Origin: Terricaulis silvestris
GTDB lineage: Bacteria > Pseudomonadota > Alphaproteobacteria > Caulobacterales > Aquidulcibacteraceae
Direction: 5' to 3'
DNA: 64,000 nucleotides
NCBI RefSeq assembly: GCF_009792355.1
Contig: NZ_CP047045.1
Span: 1,638,501 to 1,702,500, forward strand
The notes beneath the pieces are model-generated. The model searched no databases and was not told the origin of the DNA. It was given only the letters and a program-made list of their open reading frames with translations. Both the position numbers and the translations under genes were made by a program. Of this stretch, positions 17,855 through 30,888 are shown piece by piece; positions within the stretch are counted from its first letter, which is position 1, and the number at the start of each line of letters is the position of its first letter.

Positions 17855-17877
17855 TGGAGGCCTCGCCCGGAATCGAA
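17855..17877. other. attL core (23-bp copy of tRNA-Cys 3' end)
   Basis: Starts tggaggcctcgcccgg and is identical over 23 bp to 30815-30837. Flanking bases differ on both sides. It includes the inverse of CCA, so it marks the 3' end of the tRNA. Confidence 0.93.
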
Positions 17878-18139
17878 GATCGTTGATTATCCGATATAAA
17901 ATCGACACTGGCGCCAACACGATACCAACGAATCCCCCGAACTGAATTCGACTCCCCGAGTATAGATCAACACGGCCAAAGCGCAAAATCGGCGCGATCT
18001 AAGTCAGATGCCAGTTGATCTAATTTCAGCCACAAATAAAACGGTCAAGACCACCTCGTAAATACTTCAGACCGAGGCGTGGACTCTTCGGCTTATCGGT
18101 GCTTGGACAAGATTAGTCTAGGCACAGAAAGGCCAGGAG
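17878..18139. promoter_or_regulatory. Left end of element: integrase arm-type site and possible operator/promoter
   Basis: No gene in these 262 bp. 17920-17929 is cgataccaac, the same 10-mer found three times near int at the right end; the longer string ggcgccaacacgataccaac (17910-17929) is repeated exactly at 30656-30675. An inverted repeat tagatcaac (17963-17971) / gttgatcta (18014-18022) could be an operator for the structural operon that starts at 18140. No promoter is certain. Confidence 0.65.
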
Positions 18140-18673
18140 ATGCACGAGGGTATGTGGCCGAGCGAAGCCGGGAAGGCGCTCGCGGCGGCGTGCGAGATGG
18201 GCGAACCGGAGGCCCTGGGGCGCTTCCGGCGCTTCCATGAGGCGCGGGTTATCGACCCCTGCGGACGGCAAGGAGTCGGCCCCACGGCGGCCTTTGTGTG
18301 GGCGCCTGAAACGGTCGCGGCTACCGCTGTTCTCTTCGCCATCTTCGACCGCGCGCGCATCGGCGACGCGCCCCGGCTGCGCAAGCTTCACGACTACCTC
18401 ATGCGACCCCAGCCGGAGGGCGGACGGCTAATCGAATTGATCCTGAGCGACATCGCCAGCGGCGGCGCGCCGGTCATGTGGCTGACCGTCTGGCGCGGCC
18501 CTGAGGATGGCGAGCAAACGACCTTCAGCACGCGGCTGAGCGCCGAACTGGACGCGCCCATCGTCTCGCCCGGCCATGAATGGGAGCCGCTCTTCTACGG
18601 CAAGCTAGACCTTAGGCCGCTGCTTCAGAACTTCGCTGGCGCCAACGTAGTGCCGCTGCGGGCGGTGAACTAA
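18140..18673 (+). CDS. Unknown first gene of the head operon
   Basis: 177 residues, soluble, mostly helical (MHEGMWPSEAGKALAAACEM). I recognise no family. An AGGAG touches the first ATG, so translation may start at the second ATG (18152, MWPSEAG), which gives normal spacing. Its stop overlaps the portal start (TAATG), so the two are translationally coupled. Being first in a packaging/head operon it could be an assembly or regulatory protein; this is inference from position only. Confidence 0.7.
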   Translation: MHEGMWPSEAGKALAAACEMGEPEALGRFRRFHEARVIDPCGRQGVGPTAAFVWAPETVAATAVLFAIFDRARIGDAPRLRKLHDYLMRPQPEGGRLIELILSDIASGGAPVMWLTVWRGPEDGEQTTFSTRLSAELDAPIVSPGHEWEPLFYGKLDLRPLLQNFAGANVVPLRAVN

Positions 18674-20040
18674 TGGCGGCGCAGCGACCCTTCTCCCTGC
18701 GCGCCTTCGCGGTGAAGACGCTGAGCCGTTGGCTTGGCGTCAACACGCGCGGCTATGACGCTGGACGCTGGGGGCGCTTCAGCCGTGAAGCGAGCATGGG
18801 CCGCACGGCGCAAGAGACGATGCAGGCCGCGCCGCAGATACGCAGCCGCGCGCGCTACTTCGCCGGGAATGACGGCCATGCCGCCGCAGCGGTCGCGGCG
18901 CTCGTTACCTACGCAGTCGGCGCCGGGGCGATGCCTGCAAACGCCAACAGCGAGCTAGTCGACTCGTTCACGAACGATTGGTGGAACGTCTGCGATGCGG
19001 ACGGGCGGACGGATTTTGGCGGCCTGATCGCGCTCATGGTGCGCGCGCTCGTTATCGACGGCGAGTGCTTCGCGGTGTTCGTGAACACGGCGGACGGCCT
19101 GCGGCTGCGGCTCTATCCCGCCGAACAGATTGACGAGTCGCTCACGCGCGACCTTGGCGGCGGCGCTTTCATCGCGGGCGGCGTAGAATTTGGACCGGAC
19201 GGAACACGGCGCGCCTATCACATTCAGCCGTTCGCGCCGACGCAGCAATTCGACACTTACGCGCCGCCGGTTCGTATCGACGCGGCGGACGTGCTGCACT
19301 TGATGCGCCCCGTTGGCGTCGGCCAAGTGCGCGGCGTTTCGTGGCTCGCGCCGACCATGCTGAAGCTCCACGACCTGGGGCTTCTGAATGACGCGCTGCT
19401 GAAGGGCTTTCAGGTTGCAGCCGCGCACGCTGGCTTCCTGACTGATACGGGCGGATCGTCCGCGCTTCCATTCGATGGCGAGAAAGACGGCGACGCGCTC
19501 GACGTGAGCCTAGAGCCGGGAGTCGTTCGCCGACTTCCGCCCGGCATGGACATCAAATTTAACGCTCCGCACCCGCAAAGTCAGAGCATCGAATTCCGCA
19601 CGTCGATTGTCGAAGAGATCAGCGCGGCGCTTGGCGTCCCGGCGTTCATGGTGAGCGGCAATGTTTCTCGCGCCAACTATTCGAGCCTGCGGGCGGCGCT
19701 GCTGACGTTCAAGGCCGCGCTCGAAGCGCTGCAATTCAACGTGCTCGTTCCCCAGGCGCTCGCGCCGATCTGGCGCCGCTTCGCGATTACCGAAGCGCTG
19801 CGGAATGGCGCCGATGTCGGCGACCCCGATCTGAATTGCGAATGGCGTTTCCCCGCCATGCCGTCCGCCGATGCGGTGAAAGACGTGCAGGCGACCACGC
19901 TCATGCTGGACGCCAAGCTAATGAGCCGTCGCGAAGCCATCGCGGCGCGCGGCGAAACCATCGAGCGCGTTGACGCCGACATCGCAGCGGACCCGCACGC
20001 GCAAGAGCAAGAAACCGAAAGCGAGGACTCCAATGCGTAA
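18673..20040 (+). CDS. Phage portal protein, lambda family
   Basis: 455 residues. Forms the dodecameric vertex ring through which DNA enters the head. The segment RSRARYFAGNDGHAAAAVAALV (split here: RSRARYF, then AVAALVTYAVGAGAMP) matches the lambda gpB N-terminus where R-R-L-x-N-x-x-A precedes the VVG-G motif. ADVLHLMRPVGVGQVRGVSW and EEISAALGVPAFMVSGNVSRANYSSLRAAL (middle and C-terminal family blocks) are also clear. Shorter than lambda gpB (533). Overlaps the capsid gene start by 8 bp. Confidence 0.93.
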   Translation: MAAQRPFSLRAFAVKTLSRWLGVNTRGYDAGRWGRFSREASMGRTAQETMQAAPQIRSRARYFAGNDGHAAAAVAALVTYAVGAGAMPANANSELVDSFTNDWWNVCDADGRTDFGGLIALMVRALVIDGECFAVFVNTADGLRLRLYPAEQIDESLTRDLGGGAFIAGGVEFGPDGTRRAYHIQPFAPTQQFDTYAPPVRIDAADVLHLMRPVGVGQVRGVSWLAPTMLKLHDLGLLNDALLKGFQVAAAHAGFLTDTGGSSALPFDGEKDGDALDVSLEPGVVRRLPPGMDIKFNAPHPQSQSIEFRTSIVEEISAALGVPAFMVSGNVSRANYSSLRAALLTFKAALEALQFNVLVPQALAPIWRRFAITEALRNGADVGDPDLNCEWRFPAMPSADAVKDVQATTLMLDAKLMSRREAIAARGETIERVDADIAADPHAQEQETESEDSNA

Positions 20041-21865
20041 CCAACTCATGTTGCGCGCCGCCGCGCTCGCGCCGACGACCTATGACGCCAAGACGCGGAC
20101 GATTGAGGTTGTGCTTTCGACTGGCGCGGCTGTCGCGCGTTACGGCTACGTCGAAAAGCTGGACATCAACGGCGCCGACTTGCGCGGCATCGTCGGCGCG
20201 CCGGTTCTCGACACACACAATCAAGGAAGCACACGCGCCGTTCTCGGTGTGATCGAAAAGGCATGGAAGGTGGACGGCGAAATCCGCGCGCGGCTTAGGC
20301 TGAGCGCGCGCGATGATGTCGCTGGCACCGTGCGCGACATCGCCGAGGGCATCATCCGCAATTTGAGCATCGGCTACAGCGTGTCGCGCTGGGCTGACTC
20401 CACGAACTCCAAGGGCGAGCGAACAAGGACGGCTCTCGCTTGGAGGATTCTCGAAGCGTCCTTTTGTTCAATCGGCGCCGATCCTGGCGCGCGAACCCGG
20501 AGTCATCCCATGAAGACGAAGACTAAGAAGGGCGCCGCGAGTTCCGCGCCGCCGCAAGATGACGTGATCGACGATCAAATCATCGAACGCGAAGAGCCGA
20601 CCGTTGCTGAGACGCGCGCCGAAATCCGCACGATCATCAAGCGCGCGGGCGGAACGGCTGAGCAAGCCGACGATCTGATCGACCAAGAGGCGACCGTGGA
20701 GCAAGCCCGCGCCGCCGCTTATGAGATCATGACGGCGCGCACGTCCAACACGCCGCGCGTTCGCATCGTCGGCAGCAATGAGGCGCCGCAGGCGATCATG
20801 CAGCGTCGCCAAGATGCGCTCTACGCGCGTGTCACTGGCGCGGCGCCGAAGCCGGAAGAGCGTGAGTTCTACAACACGCGACTCGTCGATCACGCGCGCG
20901 CCATGCTCGCCGAACGCGGCGTCCCGGTTGTCGGCCTCTCTGAGTTCGACATCATCACGCGCGCTCACACAACGTCGGATTTCCCGGAACTGCTGACCGG
21001 GACTGGCAATCGCATCCTGTTGGAGCAATTCCAAGCGGCGCAATCGCCGCTCATTCAGCTTGGCCGCACGGCGACGGCGCCGGATTTCCGTCCGCTCAAT
21101 CGCCTGCGCATCTCTGAAATGGGCGCGCTTCAACCGCTTGGCGGCGAAAACTCCGAACTGAAAAACATCAGCCGGAGCGAGATCGCCGACGCTTACAGCA
21201 TCGAGTCGTTCGGTGGCATCTTCGCGTTGAGCTTCAAAGCCCAGCAAAATGATGACCTTTCGGCCTTCGCCGATTTCGGTCGCGCCGCTGGGCAAGCCGT
21301 CGCGCAATATCAGCGCGCCGTGATCGTCGATCTGATCGAAGGCAACCCGAACATGGGCGAAGACAATCAGCCCTTGTTCTCTGCGGCTCACAACAACAAC
21401 ATGGACCCGAGCCGCATCCTTACGGCTGGCGGCGCGCTCACGCCGCTGGAAGACGCACGGCTTGCCATGCGGATACAGAAGGGCTTGGACGGTGTGACGC
21501 CGCTCAATCTCGCGCCGAAATTCCTGGTTGTCGGCGCCGAACTGGAAACCGAAGCGCAGCGCGCCATGAGCCTCGTTTACGCGGCTCAAGCAAGCGATGT
21601 GAACGTGTTTGCAGGCTCTCTCGAATTGCTCGTGGAGTCGGCGCTCGATCCGGTCAACTGGTTCTTGTTCGCCAATCCGTCTGCGGCGCCGGTGTTCGAA
21701 CACAGTTGGTTGCAAGGTTTTTCTGGGCCTCAGTTGGCGTCTCAGGAAAACTTCCGCACGCTCGCGCGCGACTATCGCGTTGTCGCGCACTGGGGTGCGG
21801 GTCTGCTTCCTGGCGGCTGGCGCGGCGCCGTGGCGAACTTCGCCACGAACGACAGCAACAGCTAA
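20033..21865 (+). CDS. Prohead protease - major capsid protein fusion
   Basis: 610 residues from MRNQLMLRAA. Residues 1-150 are a prohead (U35-like) protease: His62 in VLDTHNQGS and Ser112 in IRNLSIGYSV are the expected catalytic pair. A charged linker starting at MKTKTKK (about 160) resembles a scaffold/delta domain. Residues about 270-610 are an HK97-fold capsid part (RISEMGALQPLGGENSELK, FGRAAGQAVAQYQRAVIVD, AAHNNNMDPSRIL). Fused protease-scaffold-capsid proteins are known in Mu-like and siphophages; the mature capsid is released by self-cleavage. Start chosen because the next upstream ATG lies inside the portal gene in the wrong context. Confidence 0.9.
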   Translation: MRNQLMLRAAALAPTTYDAKTRTIEVVLSTGAAVARYGYVEKLDINGADLRGIVGAPVLDTHNQGSTRAVLGVIEKAWKVDGEIRARLRLSARDDVAGTVRDIAEGIIRNLSIGYSVSRWADSTNSKGERTRTALAWRILEASFCSIGADPGARTRSHPMKTKTKKGAASSAPPQDDVIDDQIIEREEPTVAETRAEIRTIIKRAGGTAEQADDLIDQEATVEQARAAAYEIMTARTSNTPRVRIVGSNEAPQAIMQRRQDALYARVTGAAPKPEEREFYNTRLVDHARAMLAERGVPVVGLSEFDIITRAHTTSDFPELLTGTGNRILLEQFQAAQSPLIQLGRTATAPDFRPLNRLRISEMGALQPLGGENSELKNISRSEIADAYSIESFGGIFALSFKAQQNDDLSAFADFGRAAGQAVAQYQRAVIVDLIEGNPNMGEDNQPLFSAAHNNNMDPSRILTAGGALTPLEDARLAMRIQKGLDGVTPLNLAPKFLVVGAELETEAQRAMSLVYAAQASDVNVFAGSLELLVESALDPVNWFLFANPSAAPVFEHSWLQGFSGPQLASQENFRTLARDYRVVAHWGAGLLPGGWRGAVANFATNDSNS

Positions 21866-22086
21866 TGGCGCTCGACCTAACCTCCCTGCAAACGCTCCGG
21901 GACGCGCTCATTCGCGCGCGTCTCGGCGGCGTGCGCGAGATCGAAGATCAAAACGGCGAACGCATCGCTTACAAGAGCGACGCTGAAATGGCGCGAGCCA
22001 TCGCCGATGTTGAAACACGCATCGCGCAATTGCAGGGCGGGACCGTCAACGTCATCCGATTCAATAATTCCAAGTTTGGAGAGTGA
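21865..22086 (+). CDS. gpW-like head completion/connector protein
   Basis: 73 residues, MALDLTSLQTLRDALIRAR followed by GVREIEDQNGERIAYKSDAEM, the typical pattern of the gpW family (lambda W), which plugs the portal after packaging and forms the site for the next neck protein. Start overlaps the capsid stop (TAATG). In this element a connector without tail genes means that the head is prepared for tails supplied from elsewhere. Confidence 0.82.
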   Translation: MALDLTSLQTLRDALIRARLGGVREIEDQNGERIAYKSDAEMARAIADVETRIAQLQGGTVNVIRFNNSKFGE

Positions 22087-22087
22087 A

Positions 22088-22453
22088 ATGAGAAACTACG
22101 TTCAACCCGGCGATAACATCGACATTGCGTCGGCGCCGTATGCAGTCGACTCTGGTGAAGGCGTGCTCGTCGGCTCGCTCTTCGGCGTTGCCAACAGCGA
22201 CGCGCTGATTTCCACGGCGGTCGTTATTTCGTGCGTGGGCGTGTTCGACATCGCCAAGAATGCCGCCGACGTGTTCACGGTCGGCGCGCCGGTCTATTTC
22301 GACATCACGTCGAAAACCGCGCGCTCGCACACGGACACCGACTCCAACAGCGTTGGCGATAGCGAAGCGCTGATCGGCGTCGCTATCGCGGCGGCTGGCG
22401 CGGGCGCGACGACGGTTCGCGTTCGCCTCGGTCAGCCGGTCACGTTGGCCTAA
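22088..22453 (+). CDS. DUF2190 capsid decoration/cement protein
   Basis: 121 residues. MRNYVQPGDNIDIASAPYAV, GEGVLVGSLFGVA, the GVFDIAK segment and the ending IGVAIAAAGAGATTVRVRLG match DUF2190 proteins, which sit next to capsid genes in many phages and are taken as head decoration proteins. Starts 1 bp after the gpW gene with the ribosome site GGAG overlapping its end. Confidence 0.85.
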   Translation: MRNYVQPGDNIDIASAPYAVDSGEGVLVGSLFGVANSDALISTAVVISCVGVFDIAKNAADVFTVGAPVYFDITSKTARSHTDTDSNSVGDSEALIGVAIAAAGAGATTVRVRLGQPVTLA

Positions 22454-22458
22454 GCGTC

Positions 22459-22716
22459 ATGCAGGTTGTCGCGCCGAACGGCTATTTCCATTGCGTCATC
22501 GAGGACTCGAACGGCGTTTTTCAATCGCCGCACTGGGTTCTCGGTTGGGCGATGGATGACGATGGAAGCGTAACGCCGCTCACCATCGAAGGGCTGCAAG
22601 CCGAAGCCGTGGGCATCGTGCGGCCAACGGGTGAGGTCGAATTATTCGGCCTTGGCGTGTTCGCCAACATGGGCGAGGCGCGCACGGCTTGGCTCGATAG
22701 GAGCGACGCAGAGTAG
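22459..22716 (+). CDS. Small hypothetical protein at end of head operon
   Basis: 85 residues, beta-rich and acidic: MQVVAPNGYFHCVIEDSNGV, WVLGWAMDDDGSVTPLTI. Starts 5 bp after the DUF2190 gene. Position after the decoration gene is where lambda-like phages keep FI/FII; the sequence does not let me claim it is a neck protein. Last gene before a 167-bp structured gap. Confidence 0.7.
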   Translation: MQVVAPNGYFHCVIEDSNGVFQSPHWVLGWAMDDDGSVTPLTIEGLQAEAVGIVRPTGEVELFGLGVFANMGEARTAWLDRSDAE

Positions 22717-22883
22717 GTACGTCGGCGCCGGGAGGTTTTGTTTTAACCCGGTCATTCAGGAAGCGCCCTCTCGGTGCCGACGATACCGAAAATGAAAAAG
22801 GTCCCCGCACGCGACCAACGTGCGAGGACCCGGAATAACGGGGCGCGACCCCCTAACCATCGGCGAACAAGGAGAAAAGCCAA
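22717..22883. other. Structured intergenic region with two hairpins
   Basis: Hairpin A: 22720-22730 pairs with 22772-22782 (11 bp, one G-T). Hairpin B: 22800-22811 with 22819-22830 (ggtccccgcacg, one mismatch, 7-nt loop). Read on the minus strand, hairpin B is followed by TTTTTCATTTTC, so it looks like a minus-strand terminator although no minus gene ends here. It could also end the head operon. A strong AAGGAGAAAAG ribosome site for the next gene closes the gap. Confidence 0.6.
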
Positions 22884-23372
22884 ATGGCTACGAGAGTTCT
22901 AAGTGCGCGTGCGGAGGCGGTCAACGCCGCGCCTCGCTATGGTCACGACCGCAGTTGGTATGATTGGCCTTATTGTATCGAGCGCCAGCCGGACGGCACT
23001 TGGCTTGCCCTCAATCGCGATTACAGGGCGCTGGGCGAGCGCGCCGGATGGTGCGTGTACGAGACGCACCCGGCGCGGACGCCGCTCCCCGGTCTCACGC
23101 GGCGCGTCGTGCGGCAAATCTCCATTGAGCCGATAGGCGCCGCGATCCCCGACCGCATCTATTTGTATAGCGACGCCACGTCCCCGCGCCGTTCGCCGGA
23201 GCATCGGGCCGCCTACAAGAAGAAGCTGGCGTTGCTGTTGGACGCGGGACTGCCGCTCTCAGAGAGGCGACCGTGCGCGCGCGCGGTGACGCCAGAGCAA
23301 ATCCGCGAGGCCGCGCGAAAGAGGCCACGGAGCCGCAGAGCATGGCCCATGTGGAAGGAAGTCGCGGAATGA
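22884..23372 (+). CDS. Hypothetical protein, first gene of replication module
   Basis: 162 residues. MATRVLSARAEAVNAAP, then SWYDWPYCIERQPDGTWLALNRDYRALG, and a basic tail (EAARKRPRSRRAWPMWKEVAE). The middle resembles small phage proteins of unknown role; no helix-turn-helix is evident. Strong ribosome site AAGGAG 9 bases upstream. Stop overlaps the helicase start (ATGA), so it is coupled to replication. Confidence 0.75.
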   Translation: MATRVLSARAEAVNAAPRYGHDRSWYDWPYCIERQPDGTWLALNRDYRALGERAGWCVYETHPARTPLPGLTRRVVRQISIEPIGAAIPDRIYLYSDATSPRRSPEHRAAYKKKLALLLDAGLPLSERRPCARAVTPEQIREAARKRPRSRRAWPMWKEVAE

Positions 23373-24853
23373 CGACCACGACTAAACAGCGGCGCAGCGC
23401 GGCGGAGCTTCTTGGCGATCCGGTTCAACCGACCGCGCTCGACACCATCGAGTCCGCCGTGCTCATTCTGGGTCAAAGCTCTGGCGGCGACACAAGCAAC
23501 GGCTTCGAGTTCTATCAGCGCTGCGGCGGAACTACCTGCTATGTGCCGGAACTGAAAATCTGGCTGGCGTTCGTCGATGGCGTTTGGTCCCCGACCGATC
23601 CCGAAACCCTCATGCAAGCGTTCTGCGCGGACCTAGTTCGTGAAGCCGCTGAGCAATATCGAGATGCTAAACGCGGCGCCATTGAAGATGCAAAGCGGGC
23701 GCTCTCTCGCGCGGGCCAATTGTTTGATGATCGCCGCATTCAGGAGCGCGCGCTTAAGCAGGCGCGCCCGCACATGTCCATTTCTTCGGCGCGGTTCAAT
23801 CGCACGCCGCACCTGCTGGGCGTCGCCAACGGCGTGCTAAACCTGAAGACGCTCAAGCTCGTTATGGCGCCAGCGAGCGAATACATCAGCAAGCGCATGG
23901 GTTGCGTTTACGATCCGCACGCCGACGCGCCGATGTGGAATCGATTTATCTGCGAAGTCCTGCCGAACGCTGACGAACGCGAGCTATTGCAGCGCGCGAT
24001 CGGCGCCGCGCTGTTCGGCGTGATCCTAGATCGCGCCATCGTGTTTCTGCTGGGCGAGAGCGGCGCCAATGGCAAGAGCGTGCTTTGCAACGTGCTCTCG
24101 CGGCTGTTCGGCGACTATCACCTTACCGCCAGCGCGGACCTGCTGCTGCAAACCAAGCATGACAGCGATTACAAGCGCGAGCTTACGGCGCTCTCTATGG
24201 GCGCGCGGTTCGTGTCGATTAACGAACTGCCGAAGCACGCGGTTTGGGATGATAAGAAGATCAGAGACATTGCGTCGAAAGACGACCTTGCGGCGCGGCG
24301 CCTCTATGGTGAGTCGTTCTCGTTCACCCCGACGCATCATGTGTTCGTGCGCGGCAATTTCGCGCCGGGAAGTCAGGACTCAAGCGATGCCTTCTGGGGC
24401 CGCATCATCCCCGTTCCCTTCGACGTGCAGATTCCGCGCGCGCGGCAAATCGGGGACCTAGATGAGAAGATCGCCGCGCGCGAATTGGCGGGCGTGCTCA
24501 ATTGGGCGTTGGACGGCGCGCGTGCGTGGCGGGCCGATGGGGAGGCGAGCGGAAGCCTGGGCAAGCTGATACTGCCCAAGGTCACAATCGACACCCGCGA
24601 GCGCTACAGGGCCAAGACGGATTATGTGGCGCGATGGCTCGGAGAATGCACTGAAGAAGGCGACGATTTCAGCGAAGCGCGGCCCGCGTTGTTCGCGAGC
24701 TATCGCGACTTTTGCCATGCGAGCGGCCTACGCAATGCTGGCCTAGATCGCGAGCTTTTCGACGAACTGGAGAAGCGTGGTTTCCGGCGCGGCGCTCGCA
24801 AAGGCGTGCGCGTATTGCGCGGGCTGCGGCTTAGAGATGAGCGCTTCACATGA
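23369..24853 (+). CDS. D5-like SF3 helicase (phage/plasmid primase-helicase C-terminal type)
   Basis: 494 residues. A D5_N-like region (NRTPHLLGVANGVLNLKTLK, around 145-165) precedes an SF3 ATPase with Walker A GESGANGKS at 229-237, a Walker B-like FVSINELP near 280 and the motif FVRGNFAPG near 330; a winged-helix-like C-terminus follows. No N-terminal AEP or Toprim primase motif is present, unlike P4 alpha or D5, so priming must come from the host or another protein. It likely melts the element's origin, possibly the inverted repeat just 3 bp downstream of its stop. Start at 23369 chosen for the ATGA overlap and AAGGAA site. Confidence 0.87.
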   Translation: MTTTTKQRRSAAELLGDPVQPTALDTIESAVLILGQSSGGDTSNGFEFYQRCGGTTCYVPELKIWLAFVDGVWSPTDPETLMQAFCADLVREAAEQYRDAKRGAIEDAKRALSRAGQLFDDRRIQERALKQARPHMSISSARFNRTPHLLGVANGVLNLKTLKLVMAPASEYISKRMGCVYDPHADAPMWNRFICEVLPNADERELLQRAIGAALFGVILDRAIVFLLGESGANGKSVLCNVLSRLFGDYHLTASADLLLQTKHDSDYKRELTALSMGARFVSINELPKHAVWDDKKIRDIASKDDLAARRLYGESFSFTPTHHVFVRGNFAPGSQDSSDAFWGRIIPVPFDVQIPRARQIGDLDEKIAARELAGVLNWALDGARAWRADGEASGSLGKLILPKVTIDTRERYRAKTDYVARWLGECTEEGDDFSEARPALFASYRDFCHASGLRNAGLDRELFDELEKRGFRRGARKGVRVLRGLRLRDERFT

Positions 24854-24855
24854 TC

Positions 24856-24944
24856 CGGGGTGCAGCGGGTGCAGGTCTCTCCAAGAGTCCTCTTATACGC
24901 GACTCTAAAAGAGTCTTGGCTAGACCTGCACCCGCTGCACCCCG
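24856..24944. repeat. Large iteron-bearing inverted repeat: candidate origin or cos site
   Basis: Arms 24856-24878 and 24922-24944 are perfect inverse complements over 23 bp. Each arm contains two direct copies of GGGTGCAG, so there are four copies in two orientations. The 43-bp centre has shorter nested pairings (ccaaga/tcttgg; gactct/agagtc). It begins 3 bp after the helicase stop and lies about 160 bp before terS, the place where satellites keep an origin and lambda-like genomes keep cos. Confidence 0.75.
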
Positions 24945-25103
24945 CACGTCGCCGTCAATCAACAATGGCAATGAGTCGACGGGTCCTTTCCGGCGGCGCC
25001 CGGCTGCGGGTGGCACTGAGCCGCAGAACATCGCCCGATTCAAGCAAACCCGATTCCAGGCCGATGCGTTGTGTTCGCCGTCGCTCATGGGGAAGATGAC
25101 GGC

Positions 25104-25472
25104 ATGACACGCGCACGCCGAACCGCAGCCGAGCTTCTTGGCGACGATCCGCCGAAGACGGCGCGACCGCATCAAGTGAAAGATCATCGACAGCGCCTTG
25201 TGCTGGCGCAGGCCGAACACGCCGAACTGAAAAACCGCGCGCTGAAGGGCGAGCTTCTGTCACGCGGCGCCGTCGTCGCCGAATGGAGCGCGATCCTGCG
25301 CGAGGTTCGAGCGGGCGTGCTGTCCGCGCCGTCGCGCATCCGGTCTAGGCTGCCTCACCTGACTCAACACGATGTAGCCACAATCGACGAAGTTTTGCGC
25401 GCGATCCTGACTGACCTTGCTGCGGATTCGAACGCTGAGGCCCCTAGCGTCGCCGTACAGGCCGTCCAATGA
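25104..25472 (+). CDS. Terminase small subunit (Nu1-like)
   Basis: 122 residues from MTRARRTAAELLG, with GGGGAAG upstream at good spacing. The helical segment LAQAEHAELKNRALKGELLS followed by VVAEWSAILREVRAGVLSAP and RIRSRLPHLT is typical of Nu1/gp1-type small terminases, which recognise cos/pac DNA and recruit the large subunit. The N-terminal DNA-binding region is short here. Overlaps terL by 4 bp. Note that the helicase gene also begins with an RRSAAELLGD stretch, a curious shared N-terminus. Confidence 0.82.
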   Translation: MTRARRTAAELLGDDPPKTARPHQVKDHRQRLVLAQAEHAELKNRALKGELLSRGAVVAEWSAILREVRAGVLSAPSRIRSRLPHLTQHDVATIDEVLRAILTDLAADSNAEAPSVAVQAVQ

Positions 25473-27307
25473 CGACCGCGACCCGAGAGGCCCGCGTGCT
25501 GCACGAACGCGCCAGCGCCGTTTCCAGCGGCGACGGCGGAGTCCTTGTCGCGAGAAAACAAGCTAAGGCCGTGCTCGCGCCGCCGCCGCGTCTGTCGCTC
25601 GCCGATTGGATGGAAGCCGAGATGCGCCTTCCGGCGGGTGTCAGCGCCGAGCCGGGCCGCGTGCAGCTATGGGCGTATCAGCGCGAGATCGCCGACGCGA
25701 TCAGCGACCCGGCGTGCGAGCGAGTGACGCTCTGCAAGTCCGTCCGGGTTGGCTTGTCGACTCTGCTGACCGGCGCCATCGGCGCGCATGTGGCGAACGA
25801 TCCGGCCAACATCATGTTGCTGCTGCCTACGGAGTCGGACTGCCGGGATTACGTCGTTTCCGACCTAGAGCCGATTTTCGAGGCGACGCCGGTGTTGCGC
25901 GGCCTTGTCAGCGGCGACGCCGACGAAACGGGCCGCAGCACGCTCCTGAGCCGCCGCTTTCCTGGCGGTTCGCTGAAGATCGTTCCGGCGCGCGCGCCGC
26001 GCAATCTCCGGCGCCACAACGTCCGCATCTTGCTCATGGACGAATGCGACGCCTACGAAATCACGAATGAAGGCTCGCCGATTGATCTGGCGATCCGCCG
26101 CACGCTCTCATATCCCGACCGCAAGATCATCATGGGCAGCACGCCGACGAATTACGAAACCGGCCACGTGCTGCGCGCCTATGAGCAATCGGACCAACGC
26201 ATTTACGAGTCGGTCTGCCCTGAGTGCGGCGGCCTGACTGAGATTCAATGGCGCCATATCGAATGGCCGAAGGGTGAGCCGGAGAAGGCTGCTTTTCGGT
26301 GTCCGCATTGCGAGGCGCTGATACCGGAGCGTTTCAAGGCTCAGATGGTGAGCAACGGCGCGTGGCGCGCGACGCGGCCCGAAGTGAAAGGCCATGCCGG
26401 TTTCCGCATCAATGCGCTTGTGAGCACGCTGGCGAATGCATCATGGGCGAAGCTCGCCGCAGAGTTCCGCGATGCGAAGCGACATCCCGACAAGCTCCGC
26501 GTGTTCGTCAACACGATCTTGGCCGAAGAGTTCAAGGAGGATTTGGGCGAAGGTCTCGACGAAGGCGAGTTAGCGACGCGCGCGGAATCGTTCTCGCTCG
26601 AATCCATTCCGGCCGAAGTGTTGTGGATCACGTGCGGCGTTGACGTGCAGCGCGACCGACTCGAATGCAGCTACTTGGGCCACACGCGCGACGGCGACAT
26701 CCTCGTTCTGAAGCATGAAGAGTTTTGGGGATCGCCGCAGGCCGATGACGTTTGGCAAGAGCTAGACGACGCACTGAAGACGACATGGAAGCATCCGCTA
26801 GGCGGGACGTTGCGCGTTGACGCTTGCGCCGTTGACGCTGGCGACGGCGAGACGACTGACTCCGTGATCGGCTTCACGAAATTCCGTGCCGCGCGCCGCG
26901 TCTATGCGGTGAAGGGTGTTGCGGGGCAGCGCCCGATGATCGAAGCGAGCAAAACGCAAGGCTCAAAGCTTTTCATCATCGGAGTCGACTCCGCCAAGTC
27001 GCAATTGCTTGCGCGCCTATCGAAAGGCCGCAGCGTGCGGTTCTCTCACTCGCTGGGGCCGGAGTATTATTCTCAACTCACGTCTGAGCGCCGCGTGGTG
27101 AAGTATCTTCGCGGCTCGCCGGTCGCGCGATGGGAACGAATTAGCGGACGCCGCGCCGAAGCGCTCGACTCGTTCGTGTATGGCTGGGCCGTGCGCCAGC
27201 TAATCAAGATGTCGCCGGACACGCGCGAGAATGAGCTACGCAACCTCGCGATGGCGCCAGTGATGAAAACTGTGCATCGCTCGAAATGGATGCAGGGTGA
27301 ACGGTGA
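25469..27307 (+). CDS. Terminase large subunit, GpA family
   Basis: 612 residues. DNA-packaging motor and nuclease. WAYQREIADAI, a Walker A-like LCKSVRVGLST near 88-98, Walker B ILLMDECD near 187, the SPIDLAIRRT/IIMGSTPT coupling motif and a zinc-finger pair CPECGG...CPHC near 251-275 are typical of GpA (lambda A) terminases. The C-terminal nuclease acidic residues are in CGVDVQRDRLE and DACAVDAGDGE. Having its own TerS/TerL pair means that the element can package its own DNA rather than rely on a helper's enzyme. Confidence 0.95.
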   Translation: MTTATREARVLHERASAVSSGDGGVLVARKQAKAVLAPPPRLSLADWMEAEMRLPAGVSAEPGRVQLWAYQREIADAISDPACERVTLCKSVRVGLSTLLTGAIGAHVANDPANIMLLLPTESDCRDYVVSDLEPIFEATPVLRGLVSGDADETGRSTLLSRRFPGGSLKIVPARAPRNLRRHNVRILLMDECDAYEITNEGSPIDLAIRRTLSYPDRKIIMGSTPTNYETGHVLRAYEQSDQRIYESVCPECGGLTEIQWRHIEWPKGEPEKAAFRCPHCEALIPERFKAQMVSNGAWRATRPEVKGHAGFRINALVSTLANASWAKLAAEFRDAKRHPDKLRVFVNTILAEEFKEDLGEGLDEGELATRAESFSLESIPAEVLWITCGVDVQRDRLECSYLGHTRDGDILVLKHEEFWGSPQADDVWQELDDALKTTWKHPLGGTLRVDACAVDAGDGETTDSVIGFTKFRAARRVYAVKGVAGQRPMIEASKTQGSKLFIIGVDSAKSQLLARLSKGRSVRFSHSLGPEYYSQLTSERRVVKYLRGSPVARWERISGRRAEALDSFVYGWAVRQLIKMSPDTRENELRNLAMAPVMKTVHRSKWMQGER

Positions 27308-27576
27308 TGGCTCACTATCGACGCAAGCCGAACAAGCGTTGCGTGATCTGCGCCGATCTGTTTTCGCCGAGGGCCGCCGCGATCACATGCAGCGATGAAT
27401 GTGCGCTGGCGCGTCGGCGCAACGTGAAGCGTGAGTATATGCGGCGGAAGCGTATGAGTGCGCCCGCGAAGTTTATGGAGAACCGCGACCCAGAGGTGGT
27501 GGCGCGGCGTGCGCGTGAACGCTGGCGCCGTGGTCAAGCCGCGCGGCGCGAGCGGTTGAAGTCAAATGCTCTCTGA
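27307..27576 (+). CDS. Small zinc-finger basic protein
   Basis: 89 residues, MAHYRRKPNKRCVICADLF then CSDECALARRR, a CxxC...CxxxC metal site followed by a long basic helix. This layout is seen in phage HNH-associated or DNA-binding proteins. Start overlaps the terL stop (TGATG). HNH-type proteins help cos cleavage in many cos phages; this protein lacks a clear HNH core, so that role is only suggested. Confidence 0.7.
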   Translation: MAHYRRKPNKRCVICADLFSPRAAAITCSDECALARRRNVKREYMRRKRMSAPAKFMENRDPEVVARRARERWRRGQAARRERLKSNAL

Positions 27577-28060
27577 GCAGGAGAAGCGCGACCGCCAGAT
27601 TGCGCGCGAGATCGAAGGGTCGAGTCGGCTAGCAAATGGCGACGGCCCGCTGACGAAGCGAGAGCGGCGGCGCGCATCCAAACGAAAATACGAAGCCAAC
27701 AATCGCGAGCGCATCTGGGCGCGAAGGCGAGAAAAACTCGCGCTCGATGAAAGTTTGCGCGAGCGGCGAAGGGAAGCGTCGCGGAAATACAAAGCGAAGC
27801 AGCGCGCGTTAAAGGCGATGACGCCGGAGCAGCGCGAGCGTGAGCTACACCGAAGACAACAGGCGAGATGGGCAAAGGCGAACCCCGATTGCATCGCCGA
27901 TGCGCAACGCAAATGGCGAGAGAAGCAGGACCCCGAGCTATTCCGCAAATACGATGCGAAGCGCTACGCCCTACACGCCGAGAAGATCAAAGCGCGGAAG
28001 CTCGCCTACTACTACGCCAATCGAGAGCGCATCAAAGCGAAGCGGCGCGCGCAAAGCTAG
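27566..28060 (+). CDS. Arg/Lys-rich repeat protein
   Basis: 164 residues, about one third Arg+Lys. It contains four loose repeats of a pattern like RKYxxxNRERxxARRR (KRKYEANNRERIWARRR; SRKYKAKQRALK; AKANPDCIADAQRKWREK; KYDAKRYALHAEKIKARK). Such repeats occur in front of HNH nucleases in phages, but no nuclease domain follows here. Likely a nucleic-acid-binding coil. Overlaps the zinc-finger gene by 11 bp in another frame; ends tail-to-tail with the minus-strand gene (4-bp overlap). Confidence 0.7.
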   Translation: MLSEQEKRDRQIAREIEGSSRLANGDGPLTKRERRRASKRKYEANNRERIWARRREKLALDESLRERRREASRKYKAKQRALKAMTPEQRERELHRRQQARWAKANPDCIADAQRKWREKQDPELFRKYDAKRYALHAEKIKARKLAYYYANRERIKAKRRAQS

Positions 28061-28479
28061 TCGGCGGTTCTCCGCCGCTCACGAAACACCGCGTCAAGTT
28101 GTTTGGCGGATCGCTGCTTTGCGCGCGCGAGATCAGCCGCAGTCACGCCGCCACCTTCGCCTTGCAAGGCGTCTTGACCGGAGCCGAGAAGCATTAGCCC
28201 GAACGCCATCTCCTCACGCGTGAGCGACTCCTTCTTTGCCTTCGCATCAATCTGTTGGACGAACCACTGCGGGACATCGATCTCTAAGCCGGTTGGGCGA
28301 TGCCGCCCGACGCGACGATCCGCAGAGTCGTGATGGCGAGTCTCCATCGCGATTAACGCCAGCCGTCGCATTGCTTCGGCGCGCGTGGGCAAGTCCTTTT
28401 GCTCGCGCCGCCACTTATCGAGTGCATCAAGGAAATCTGGCGTCGCGCGGACTAGAACTTGGTCGCGGTGTTCTGACAT
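28057..28479 (-). CDS. Ribbon-helix-helix-like DNA-binding protein
   Basis: 140 residues. DQVLVRATPDFLDALDKWRR followed by LPTRAEAMRRLALIA is an Arc/MetJ-type ribbon-helix-helix pattern (strand, helix A, turn, helix B). The second half (PQWFVQQIDAKAKKESLTRE) repeats a similar helix-turn shape. It may be the element's regulator, as no CI- or AlpA-like gene is visible. Convergent with the structural operon. Confidence 0.65.
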   Translation of the reverse strand: MSEHRDQVLVRATPDFLDALDKWRREQKDLPTRAEAMRRLALIAMETRHHDSADRRVGRHRPTGLEIDVPQWFVQQIDAKAKKESLTREEMAFGLMLLGSGQDALQGEGGGVTAADLARAKQRSAKQLDAVFRERRRTAD

Positions 28480-28540
28480 GGGCCGTCGCCACGCAAGGAC
28501 GGCGCCAGCTTGCTAGCGCGCTATCGTTAACCGTCGCGTT

Positions 28541-29029
28541 TCACTGTGCCAACGCTCGGCAATACTCGCCGCGTCCACGGAATTGGCTCGAAGCGTAGGC
28601 GTATTCCTCTGCGGTCATGGGCGGGTTAAAGCGCGACCTGAAAGATTCTAGGTCGTCGAAGTAGCTCTGTTCCATGTCTCGACACATTTCGAGCCATCGC
28701 CGTTGCCGCGCCGACAAACCAGATGTGGCGGGTGCGGGGGGAGTTGTTGCTTCTCGCGCTCGCCGCATGTCGTCGTATATGCCGACGCTGCTGCCTGGGC
28801 TGATAAAGTCGAAGCGGTTTCGACTCTGACCTTGTTGATTGACGACGCACGCGCCGCTCGGACCTGCCGCCTGACGGCAGGCGTCCATAGAGTAGTAGTA
28901 GCAGTTAAATTGAGTGCCGGTATTATCGACCGTGCAGAACGGAGCGCTCCCGCTTTGCGCAACTGCATTGCTCGCGAACGCTGCAACGCCAATTGTTGCA
29001 AGGGCCATTGCCAGTAGGATGCAGCGCAT
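28541..29029 (-). CDS. Secreted protein with DUF3551-like domain
   Basis: 162 residues from MRCILLAMALATIGVAAFAS, a signal peptide cleaved near AVAQS; GGGGAG lies 6 bases upstream. FCTVDNTGTQFNCYYYSMDACRQAAGPSGACVVN has the Cys pattern of DUF3551, common in Rhizobiales and relatives as small exported proteins. The C-terminus is helical (LSARQRRWLEMCRDMEQSY). Not a phage structural gene: probably host-derived cargo. Confidence 0.72.
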   Translation of the reverse strand: MRCILLAMALATIGVAAFASNAVAQSGSAPFCTVDNTGTQFNCYYYSMDACRQAAGPSGACVVNQQGQSRNRFDFISPGSSVGIYDDMRRAREATTPPAPATSGLSARQRRWLEMCRDMEQSYFDDLESFRSRFNPPMTAEEYAYASSQFRGRGEYCRALAQ

Positions 29030-29181
29030 CGGTGCTCCCCAATTACTTCGCGAACGCAACAAATACACAAACCTAGGCGGCTCGGCGAGAGGTCTTTCCG
29101 AATATCTTAAGCTCGATTCACCCCTTGCGCGCCAAATCACTCCAGGCTCACGGCCCCCTGTGATGATTCGGAGGTAGCGAA

Positions 29182-29373
29182 ATGCAAGTTGGTGATGAAG
29201 TTCAATACCCGCCGTTCAGGCACAAATGGACCATTGTAAAACTCGTTGACGACGACAAGGCGGAATGTGTCCGCGAAGATAACGGCGCCGTTGAGATATT
29301 TGAATTGGCGCTGCTGGAGCCTTATGAGCCGCCTCGCGAGTCTCTCGTCGCTCGCGGAAAATCTTGGATTTAG
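29182..29373 (+). CDS. Small acidic hypothetical protein
   Basis: 63 residues, MQVGDEVQYPPFRHKWTIVK, SH3-like beta pattern (VGDEVQYP, WTIVKLVDDDKAEC). A strong GGAGGTAG site lies 6 bases upstream. Convergent with int. Unknown function. Confidence 0.65.
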   Translation: MQVGDEVQYPPFRHKWTIVKLVDDDKAECVREDNGAVEIFELALLEPYEPPRESLVARGKSWI

Positions 29374-29391
29374 CCTCTGGGTTTAAGCGCC

Positions 29392-30603
29392 CTAGCCGAA
29401 CAGACCTTCATGCCAAGTCGCGCTGCCGTGCAGCTTGTCCAATTCATCGGCCCACCATTGCAGAAGCTCGCGCCGCTTCGGCAGGTGTTCGGCGCTGTTG
29501 TAGGCGCGCCGGACTTCACTACCGGAGACGTGCGCTAGGCAAAGCTCGATCACATCGGGCGCCCACAAGCCGGACTCGTTGGCGATGGTGGAGAACGATC
29601 CGCGCCAGCCGTGCATCGTGGTCTTGTTGCGATAGCCCATCGCGTAGCAGTGAAAAATCATCGTGTTGTTGGACATCGCGCCGTGACCGCCGCGCCCCGG
29701 AAAGACGTAGCTGCCAAGCCCGCGCTGAGCCTGCAATTCCTTCACGATGGCGAGCGCCTGCGGAGACAACGGAACGATGTGTTCGCGGCCTTCCTTCATG
29801 CGCTCGCCGGGGATGCGCCAGAGCGCTTTCGACGGGTGACGCAGGTTCTCGAATTCATCCCATTGCGCGCCGATGGCCTCGCCAGTGCGCGCGGCGGTCA
29901 AGATCGTGAAGAGGATCGCCGACCGCGTTTGCGGCTCGCATTTGCTGGCGCGCAGCTTCGCGAGAAAGTCTCCGATTTCATCGCGCTTCAGCGACTTATG
30001 GTGAACCGGGCGTGGCGCGGGCTTCAGGCGACCTTTGAGCGCGGGTGTCGGATCAATCACGTTGTCATCATCTGAGAAACGGAAGATGCCGCCGATGTAT
30101 TCGCGGACTCGATGCGCCGTTTCGATGATGCCGCGATCTTCGATCTTGCGGAGCACGGCGAGCACGTCGGACTTGCGAACGCTGCCGATGGGCATGTCGC
30201 CGATGTGGGGGAAGACGTAGGTTTCCAGCCGCTTCAGAACGATGTCCGCGTATTTGCGATTCCAGCGCGCTTCCTTGTGCCGATACCAGCGGCGCCCGAT
30301 CCGCTCGAAGGTCTCGCTGCTGTCCATGGTCACGGCGACGCGGCCCGGATCGCGGCCCTCCTTAAGCGCCTTCTTGGCGGCCTCCCGTGCGGCGCGGGCT
30401 TCAATCAGTCCGTTGGCCTTCGGATCATAGGCGCCGAGCGCCAGCGTCTTCTGCTTGCCGCCGTGGCGGTAGCTGAGCCGCAGGAGCTTCGACCCGTTGG
30501 GGTTCACAAGCAGGTGCAGCCCGCCGCCGTCGCTGACCTTGTAGGGCTTCGGCTGCGGCTTCAGTTGCTCGATTTTCGTTTGGGTAAGTGGCGCGGTCGG
30601 CAT
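29392..30603 (-). CDS. int: Tyrosine-recombinase integrase (P4/DUF4102 type)
   Basis: 403 residues from MPTAPLTQTKIEQLKP. N-terminal arm-binding DUF4102 (YKVSDGGGLHLLVNPNGSK), then a core-binding SAM-like domain and catalytic domain with Arg in TAARTGEAIGAQW (about 236), HxxR in MHGWRGSF (about 330-333) and Tyr in VRRAYNSAEHL (about 367). It catalyses integration/excision at the tRNA-Cys 3' end. An open frame continues upstream through the tRNA gene (MAEWLRSGLQIRAPRFD), which is only a translation of tRNA. Lies 212 bp downstream of tRNA-Cys on the same strand. Confidence 0.95.
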   Translation of the reverse strand: MPTAPLTQTKIEQLKPQPKPYKVSDGGGLHLLVNPNGSKLLRLSYRHGGKQKTLALGAYDPKANGLIEARAAREAAKKALKEGRDPGRVAVTMDSSETFERIGRRWYRHKEARWNRKYADIVLKRLETYVFPHIGDMPIGSVRKSDVLAVLRKIEDRGIIETAHRVREYIGGIFRFSDDDNVIDPTPALKGRLKPAPRPVHHKSLKRDEIGDFLAKLRASKCEPQTRSAILFTILTAARTGEAIGAQWDEFENLRHPSKALWRIPGERMKEGREHIVPLSPQALAIVKELQAQRGLGSYVFPGRGGHGAMSNNTMIFHCYAMGYRNKTTMHGWRGSFSTIANESGLWAPDVIELCLAHVSGSEVRRAYNSAEHLPKRRELLQWWADELDKLHGSATWHEGLFG

Positions 30604-30636
30604 GTTGATTCCCGGTTCGATTCCGCGTTGCGGAAC

Positions 30637-30784
30637 TTTGTTGGTATCGATTTTCGGCGCCAACACGATACCAACAAACCCGGCTGAAACATGCCGATTC
30701 GCCTGACTCTGCGAAAACCCGCTGAAAACGCTGGATTTCCGGTCTAGGCGGATGAAAGCGCAGGCGTTTTTGGTGTTGGTATCG
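30637..30784. promoter_or_regulatory. Integrase arm-type sites / int operator
   Basis: A 13-bp perfect inverted repeat tttgttggtatcg (30637-30649) / cgataccaacaaa (30666-30678) lies 34 bp upstream of int. A third copy of gttggtatcg is at 30775-30784 beside the tRNA, and a fourth, inverted, at 17920-17929 near attL. Spacing and distribution fit arm-binding sites of the integrase; the inverted pair may also repress int. Confidence 0.72.
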
Positions 30785-30814
30785 CCTGCAAAAACACGTC
30801 TGAAATGAGGGGGT

Positions 30815-30837
30815 TGGAGGCCTCGCCCGGAATCGAA
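30815..30837. other. attR core within tRNA-Cys 3' end
   Basis: Identical over 23 bp to 17855-17877; covers CCA, acceptor 3' strand and part of the T-arm. Confidence 0.93.
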
Positions 30838-30888
30838 CCGGGGTGCGCGGATTTGCAGTCCGCTGCGTAGCCACTCCGCCACGAGGCC
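30815..30888 (-). tRNA. tRNA-Cys (GCA)
   Basis: Minus strand: acceptor GGCCTCG / CGAGGCC, anticodon loop CTGCAAA giving GCA, T-loop GGTTCGATTCC, encoded CCA; 74 nt. All stems pair. It is the integration target of the satellite; its last 23 bases are duplicated at 17855-17877. Confidence 0.96.

Follow-up and report, generated by a model that had tools for sequence, protein, structure and literature searches.

A tRNA-bounded, capsid-encoding element of Terricaulis silvestris, probably a tail-borrowing phage satellite, and its alphaproteobacterial relatives

The window analysed here, i.e. the whole stretch of DNA under consideration, comprises 64,000 nucleotides (nt) of the chromosome of Terricaulis silvestris. 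It contains an element (positions 17855..30837) that very probably is an intact integrated phage satellite, one that encodes its own capsid, packages itself and borrows the tails of a helper phage. The element is 12,960 bp long, measured start-to-start between two exact 23-bp direct repeats (17855-17877 and 30815-30837), and carries 16 genes (the initial annotation, made from the letters of the window, had counted 17), all of which were assigned to families, where possible, by Pfam and PHROGs profile scans. From the left attachment site (attL), g01 is followed by genes for the portal, a protease-capsid fusion, a gpW-like adaptor, a cement protein, two unassigned proteins, a superfamily 3 (SF3) helicase, and the small and large terminase subunits (TerS and TerL). 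After TerL come a treble-clef-like gene, a gene for a basic protein, two genes on the minus strand, one for a 63-aa protein and, adjoining the right attachment site (attR), the integrase gene, which is likewise on the minus strand. The features are as follows (HTH, helix-turn-helix):

17855..17877, no strand: attL, copy of the tRNA-Cys 3' end (exact repeat; site unoccupied in 19 of the 25 sisters)
17910..17935, no strand: putative integrase arm-type site, a 26-nt repeat 92% identical to 30656-30681, with CGATACCAAC at 17920-17929
18140..18673, plus: g01, 177 aa, satellite-specific, directly upstream of the portal; suspected MerR-like HTH regulator (homologues and weak fold matches)
18673..20040, plus: portal, lambda family (PF05136 3e-70; phrog_21)
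20033..21865, plus: prohead protease-major capsid fusion, 610 aa (phrog_4523 3e-129; PF25209 3e-36)
21865..22086, plus: gpW-like head-tail adaptor Ad1, 73 aa (phrog_2545 6e-12; no Pfam match)
22088..22453, plus: cement/decoration protein, Phage_cement_2 (DUF2190) (PF09956 4e-23)
22459..22716, plus: 85-aa protein (no credible family in Pfam or PHROGs)
22884..23372, plus: 162-aa protein (no family in Pfam or PHROGs)
23369..24853, plus: SF3 helicase (D5_N/DUF5906), replication initiator (PF08706 5e-19; phrog_1156 6e-84)
24856..24944, no strand: inverted repeat between helicase and TerS, with 31-34-nt arms; candidate origin or cos (DNA fold -40.9 kcal/mol, z -11.6)
25104..25472, plus: small terminase, Nu1-like (phrog_57 5e-15; PF07471 (Nu1) 5e-4, below its cut-off)
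25469..27307, plus: large terminase, GpA type, with ATPase and nuclease domains (PF05876 2e-80; PF20454 5e-74)
27307..27576, plus: 89-aa treble-clef-like protein, conserved beside TerL (weak PHROG matches including HNH endonuclease at 0.006; homologues in G043, G056, G680 and G681)
27566..28060, plus: basic 164-aa protein (homologues in G043, G680 and G681)
28057..28479, minus: 140 aa, candidate ribbon-helix-helix-like repressor (phrog_4738 repressor 0.013; motif by eye)
28541..29029, minus: 162 aa, DUF3551-like, possibly cargo (PF12071 3e-6)
29182..29373, plus: 63-aa protein (no family in Pfam or PHROGs)
29392..30603, minus: tyrosine integrase, 403 aa, with arm, central and catalytic domains (PF22022, PF13356, PF00589)
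30640..30784, no strand: putative integrase arm sites, with GTTGGTATCG at 30640-30649 and 30775-30784 and an inverted copy at 30666-30675
30815..30837, no strand: attR inside the tRNA-Cys 3' end (exact repeat and tRNA call)
30815..30888, minus: tRNA-Cys(GCA), still intact after the insertion (tRNA call)

No premature stop interrupts any of the 16 frames, and the integrase, SF3 helicase, TerS, TerL, portal, protease-capsid fusion, gpW and DUF2190 genes, which the initial annotation had called intact, are so by their frames and their profile matches. Only the portal, capsid, SF3 helicase, TerL and integrase exceed 200 aa; further long open reading frames (ORFs) overlap these in other frames. The solved chains that match the portal profile are themselves portals; the capsid profile matches three, of which one is an unnamed major capsid and the others are capsids of the Mu GpT type; an AlphaFold model of the capsid was too poor to be used (predicted local distance difference test score, pLDDT, 53). 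The SF3 helicase matches phage primase PHROGs in their C-terminal parts, and Pfam detects no primase domain in it. The AlphaFold2 model of g01 (pLDDT 88) found no credible match in the PDB; among viral structures its best fold matches include phage MerR-type HTH proteins, weakly (E 0.04-0.06, none below 0.001). No gene of the element matched the AlpA or HTH_17 families, and PADLOC, applied to six of the genes, gave no defence match.

Tail, baseplate and lysis genes are missing from this inventory, as had been claimed at the outset: tail, baseplate, holin, endolysin and spanin families of Pfam and PHROGs match none of the 16 genes, structure prediction (for g01 only), which the initial annotation had named as a way to refute its reading, shows none, and neither PHROGs nor a search with nine tail proteins recognises a tape measure in the element.

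The 23-bp repeat is the CCA-ending 3' end of the tRNA-Cys at 30815-30888(-), which bears out the exact attachment-site (att) duplication that had been proposed; the 3.86-Mb chromosome yielded no third full copy at E 0.001. Among 30 genomes of the genus, 26 had a match to the tRNA-Cys, and setting aside the window's own genome left the 25 sisters. Where the site is empty (19 of 25), tRNA-Asn shares the strand of tRNA-Cys and lies 172-335 nt to its 3' side; the corresponding distance in the window is 13.2 kb, or 248 nt if the element is subtracted. The tRNA-Asn neighbourhood was not seen within the stretch examined in the remaining six, four of which (G057, G049, whose stretch ended at 5.3 kb, G059 and G039) were inspected and showed no genes of the window element there. 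One of them, G039, has another copy (32 nt) of the 3' part of tRNA-Cys 1.3 kb downstream of that tRNA (L134:7463-8792), possibly marking a small insertion at the same site.

Judged by comparison of genomes, the element is one of a class-wide alphaproteobacterial family, not a one-off deletion. Thirteen elements, the window's included, are bounded by duplicated tRNA 3' ends and share the head and packaging core; they measure 10.2-17.8 kb (median 12.5 kb) and are distributed over ten tRNA isotypes and ten bacterial families of the class. They are listed by genome, tRNA, size (in bp, as the start-to-start distance of the tRNA 3'-end repeats) and, where recorded, repeat length:

G000 (the window): Cys, 12,960
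G043: Ser, 12,900, 15-nt repeat, marginal by itself
G056: Gln, 12,665
G248: Thr, 12,509, 51 nt
G169: Arg, 10,520, 46 nt
G266: Cys, 10,207, 17 nt
G578: Gly, 11,762, 49 nt
G363: Arg, 10,868, 20 nt
G626: Phe, 12,456, 17 nt
G340: Met, 16,655, 21 nt
G622: Gly, 17,763, 48 nt
G888: Lys, 11,933, 47 nt
G761: Pro, 15,301, 53 nt

G202 (Asn, 15 nt, 9,969) was left out of the 13 because it matches in the capsid only, with no portal, adaptor, cement or TerL match. A duplicated tRNA bound was not seen for G349, G684, G582, G001, G394a/b, G402, G673, G656, G318, G610, G397, G340b, G639, G322, G570, G948, G1020, G693, G746 or G1021, several of which are phage-like or short contigs. In G363, the integrase gene appears to be split by a 399-aa gene (L055:2820-5270), and the Pfam families recognised in that ORF set include a Mutator-type transposase.

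The search for elements with the same core in other Caulobacterales genomes, which the initial annotation had recommended, led to a family that spans the class. Counting the window's own genome at each level, the capsid search of 60 genomes of the bacterial family found the window genome and three others at E 1e-10 (3/60 at E 1e-100 or better), and that of the order found 7/299 genomes at 1e-40; the portal profile matched 18/385 genomes of the class at 1e-60, and the capsid profile 31/398 of the phylum at 1e-60. Full-length capsid relatives occur within the genus of the window (G043 and G056), each in a syntenic element, adjoining tRNA-Ser and tRNA-Gln, with a replication gene that differs from the window's and by eye is AAA-type and SF3-type, respectively. 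Of the new phylum-wide matches, seven were examined in long stretches: G888, G948, G1020 and G761 belong to the same class and have gpW after the capsid, and the out-of-class G693, G746 and G1021 show none there (two have tail matches, and one contig ends just past the cement gene). At the level of ORF sets, the non-core genes of the relatives show replication families that vary (SF3, AAA_25, Prim-Pol) while the head is constant. A homologue of g01 was detected in 10/16 satellite records vs none of 26 other regions. The rate of nonsynonymous substitution (dN) was lower than that of synonymous substitution (dS) in 20/20 gene-pair comparisons (ratio about 0.15-0.46; for four close portal pairs, dN 0.20-0.26 and dS 0.92-1.12), which indicates that the head genes have remained under selection. 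Plasmid records contribute 32 related portals, all <60% identical.

Two observations concern G680, a relative whose integrase is bordered by tRNA-Gln. Beside this integrase lies a gene for an AIPR/AbiU-like protein (L063:4630-5853(-)), possibly anti-phage cargo, and across the tRNA lies one for a 963-aa TIR-nSTAND-FGE-sulfatase fusion (L063:4-2892(-)).

The same architecture is met in viral records. IMG/VR held 420 relatives by capsid profile and 227 by TerL profile; the best 80 of each were kept, five duplicates were removed, and L029, L032 and L033 were added, resulting in 148 distinct records (a query with the single capsid protein gave no match to viral contigs). TerL, portal and capsid occur together in 114/148, on contigs with a median length of 12.6 kb (quartiles 11.2 and 15.6 kb); 105 of the 114 are <=20 kb, two are >30 kb, and 63 also have an integrase. 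The gpW gene follows the capsid in 102 of them, takes the phage order in two, and was not detected in ten. Such counts are no census, since many of the records are fragments and they were chosen for resembling the window's relatives.

Gene order and phylogeny separate the family from phages with related heads. In all five annotated phage records that name gpW/Ad1, this gene lies between TerL and the portal, whereas in the satellites it lies between capsid and cement. The portal tree comprises 40 rows (15 satellites, G349, and 24 others, including nine from named phage records; L035 was dropped), and in it the 15 satellite portals and G349 form a clade (support 100/99) that leaves the 24 others outside, which lends support to the earlier suggestion of a potentially new lineage. 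Related capsids of phage records are at most 32.8% identical (30 of 106 listed), and related portals of phage records are <60% identical in 165/165. Relatives in the form of full-length phages, which the initial annotation had named as a refutation, are not what was found: the nearest relatives are small tRNA-bounded elements, and the annotated phages differ in gene order. A related capsid also occurs in two short 'phage' records from E. coli, which were considered as satellites and rejected as partial genomes of tailed phages. As a separate observation, G349 (L062:3272-8538) has a satellite-clade portal followed by podovirus-like head-tail adaptor pieces, and may be a mosaic element or a decayed neighbour.

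Searches for tail genes were extended to the whole family. From 13 elements or records, 113 non-core ORFs were scanned with Pfam (ORFs <50 aa and two ORFs spanning stretch joins excluded), and the 25 families listed of the 26 recognised include none of tail or lysis; the identical pipeline does find tail families in phage-like relatives (25 of 31 families listed) and detects tube, attachment and tape-measure proteins in the tailed G001/G684. PHROGs reveals tape-measure proteins in G761, G622 and G202 (those of the latter two are missed by Pfam), and in G761 also a Neck1 protein and a small tail protein. The search with nine tail proteins agrees, detecting a tape measure in 3/16 elements (G761, G622, G202) and in 4/148 viral records (L219, L270, L272, L279); three of these four match the tape measure of phage RcOceanus and may be phages, and the fourth, L272, matches the tape measure, the neck and the chaperone of G761. 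When tailed phages supplied the tail and lysis proteins for a tblastn search (L010_x1, a cement and hence head gene, excluded from the counts), matches were obtained in 1/12 elements (G202) and 4/148 viral records (L202, L219, L270, L279), compared with 8/8 phage-like stretches (two weakly) and 6/8 tailed control loci serving as positive controls. The search is thus incomplete in its controls, and single tail genes can escape detection.

In the 15.3-kb G761 (tRNA-Pro), the genes for the tape measure (L301:11538-13919(-)), the small tail protein, a suspected chaperone (L301:14061-14333(-)), and the neck protein (L301:17019-17582(-)) stand beside a satellite head module. The tape-measure gene of the 17.8-kb G622 is at L060:9086-11656(+), and that of G202, which is divergent and shares the capsid only, at L021:15835-17652(-). 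We suggest that a tape measure in a satellite may be a means to fix the length of the borrowed tail.

How such an element might have come about otherwise has to be weighed against these data. The head genes have homologues in tailed phages, and annotated tailed relatives have tail genes after the head module, as would suit a remnant of a normal tailed prophage that has lost its tail and lysis genes. Exact att sites on both sides, the recurrence of a core without a tail module in separate integrations at ten tRNA types, a portal clade apart from other portals, a relocated gpW, purifying selection, and sites that are empty in sisters argue otherwise; given that the architecture recurs, that sisters have empty sites and that the portals form a clade of their own, we rejected a deletion remnant and consider it extremely unlikely. 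Seven small genes have no confident family, and tail genes can escape a search by Pfam alone, as the tape measures of some relatives demonstrate, so that entry and lysis proteins of a self-sufficient tail-less or short-tailed virus might be hidden among the small unassigned genes. These genes encode only 63-177 aa, however, only g01 and the two post-TerL genes have homologues in the nearest relatives, and to our knowledge no virion with portal and terminase infects without any tail; such a virus is very unlikely. The least likely explanation of all is a domesticated particle system of the host akin to a gene transfer agent (GTA): the host does retain a GTA cluster in degenerate form (TerL, portal, a partial capsid gene, and GTA_TIM), but the element has an integrase, att sites and a site empty in sisters, is present in only 3/60 family genomes (its own included, at E 1e-100), and has a capsid, TerL and portal that match Pfam families other than those of the host's GTA.

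Several points weigh against an intact satellite of a uniform family. Particle, excision, helper and transfer are predictions from the gene content. The att repeats of three of the 13 elements (G043, G266 and G626) are only 15-17 nt long, and g01 went undetected in 6/16 satellite records (one of them, G680, begins at the portal). The portal of G349 falls within the satellite clade, yet podovirus-like adaptor pieces come after it. A single satellite clade is not resolved in the capsid tree (calculated without L029), although the approximately unbiased (AU) test does not reject one (p-AU 0.234), and in the TerL tree (without L029, L035, G570 and G322) the satellites form three groups, with G622 alone on a long branch, which implies that packaging genes have been exchanged. 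Since G622, G761 and the divergent capsid relative G202 have tape measures, and G761 also a neck protein, the absence of tail genes is not a family rule. Finally, the seven IMG/VR records whose class was looked up are linear, and the viral stretches examined show no exact terminal repeat of at least 20 nt that would point to circular genomes.

We nevertheless favour a tail-borrowing satellite, for which the following life cycle can be proposed from the gene content. Infection by a tailed helper phage, or its induction, would derepress the element, which would excise and replicate from its own origin, presumably the inverted-repeat site beside the helicase. The element would build its own capsid, into which its TerS and TerL would package about 13 kb of its own DNA; its own adaptor would close the vertex, a helper tail (and neck) would then be attached, and the particles would exit through the helper's lysis. 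The inverted repeat (24856-24944) is near-perfect and contains iteron-like GCTGCACCC units. Shorter inverted repeats at the same place in G043, G056, G680, G681 and G340 beat 15/15 shuffles; those of G248, G578, G626 and G169 do not beat all 15.

The helper is probably an infecting phage because no resident one was recognised with the four families tried: PhageMin_Tail and Phage_sheath_1 had no match in the element's own genome, GpA_ATPase occurs there in the window element alone, and the only other portal of an HK97-type family belongs to the degenerate GTA cluster. That cluster (L100:7482-14710; G000:C1 about 2355481-2362709) comprises TerL, portal, part of a capsid (profile positions 1-132 of 280) and GTA_TIM, with no tail genes called between its parts. 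The lack of a resident helper is no objection, since, according to a review, the 17 prophages in the strain of origin of EcCIEDL933, a capsid-forming phage-inducible chromosomal island (cf-PICI), gave no detectable mobilisation of it and two foreign phages did (PMC11389934).

Beyond the single element, we tentatively propose, at slightly less than even odds, an old class-wide alphaproteobacterial satellite lineage that derives from a lambda/Mu-GpT-type head, separately from the known cf-PICIs, with the relocated gpW and the regulator g01 as its marks, and in some branches of which an own tape measure, chaperone and neck would set the length of the borrowed tail. Few experimental systems are known for satellites that encode a capsid and borrow tails. 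With a second head chemistry, more than 100 records and a gene order that distinguishes satellites from phages, how often and in what way such satellites originate becomes testable; the tape-measure branch would allow asking whether a satellite sets the length of its borrowed tail, and Caulobacter and Rhodobacter, for which phages are known, offer relatives that are tractable in the laboratory.

Known systems resemble the element to different degrees. In titles and opening abstracts, among the matches listed, no description of capsid-encoding satellites of Alphaproteobacteria was found (bioRxiv and most subscription papers lay outside this scope). Phages RcOceanus, Stenotrophomonas S1 and Pseudomonas LPPA33 share a related protease-capsid fusion and portal (and, in RcOceanus and LPPA33, a cement protein), but they are 37.6-40.3 kb long with capsids at most 32.8% identical, and the annotation of RcOceanus and S1 names genes for tail and lysis and places gpW upstream of the portal (LPPA33 is not annotated). 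MulchRoom-type Streptomyces satellites likewise have their own capsid and packaging genes, a tyrosine integrase and a tail thought to be helper-derived (PMC10690885); compared by description only, they differ in their Streptomyces hosts, direct terminal repeats and low GC content. The E. coli RepA_N satellites often lie at tRNAs and have major capsid protein and decoration genes, with a tape measure as in G761 and G622 (PMC10448857), but are said to be without the terminase, protease and adaptor that the window family has.

The closest parallel is offered by the cf-PICIs, which have their own capsid, protease, portal, head-tail connectors, TerS and TerL and need a helper for tails only (PMC10690885). 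Their capsids form three radiations according to a review (PMC11389934), that of the E. coli cf-PICI reportedly groups with the capsid of the Rhodobacter GTA (PMC12846349), and alpA is described as a signature gene (PMC10448857). Going by these descriptions, the window element is set apart from cf-PICIs by its Mu-GpT-like capsid with fused protease, its lambda-type GpA terminase and its alphaproteobacterial host; AlpA was not found in it, and the candidate for HNH is the 89-aa gene after TerL with its weak PHROG match (0.006). The counterpart of the Pri-Rep replication initiator of cf-PICIs may be the SF3 helicase, with its matches to phage primase PHROGs and no primase domain by Pfam. The match to cf-PICIs drawn by the initial annotation holds for the mode of life but does not demonstrably extend to membership. 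Like cf-PICIs such as EcCIEDL933, the element has a major capsid protein, protease, portal, head-tail adaptor, TerS and TerL, an integrase and flanking att sites, and no recognised tail or lysis genes, and on this gene content the best reading is that it would live as cf-PICIs do, on a different head module.

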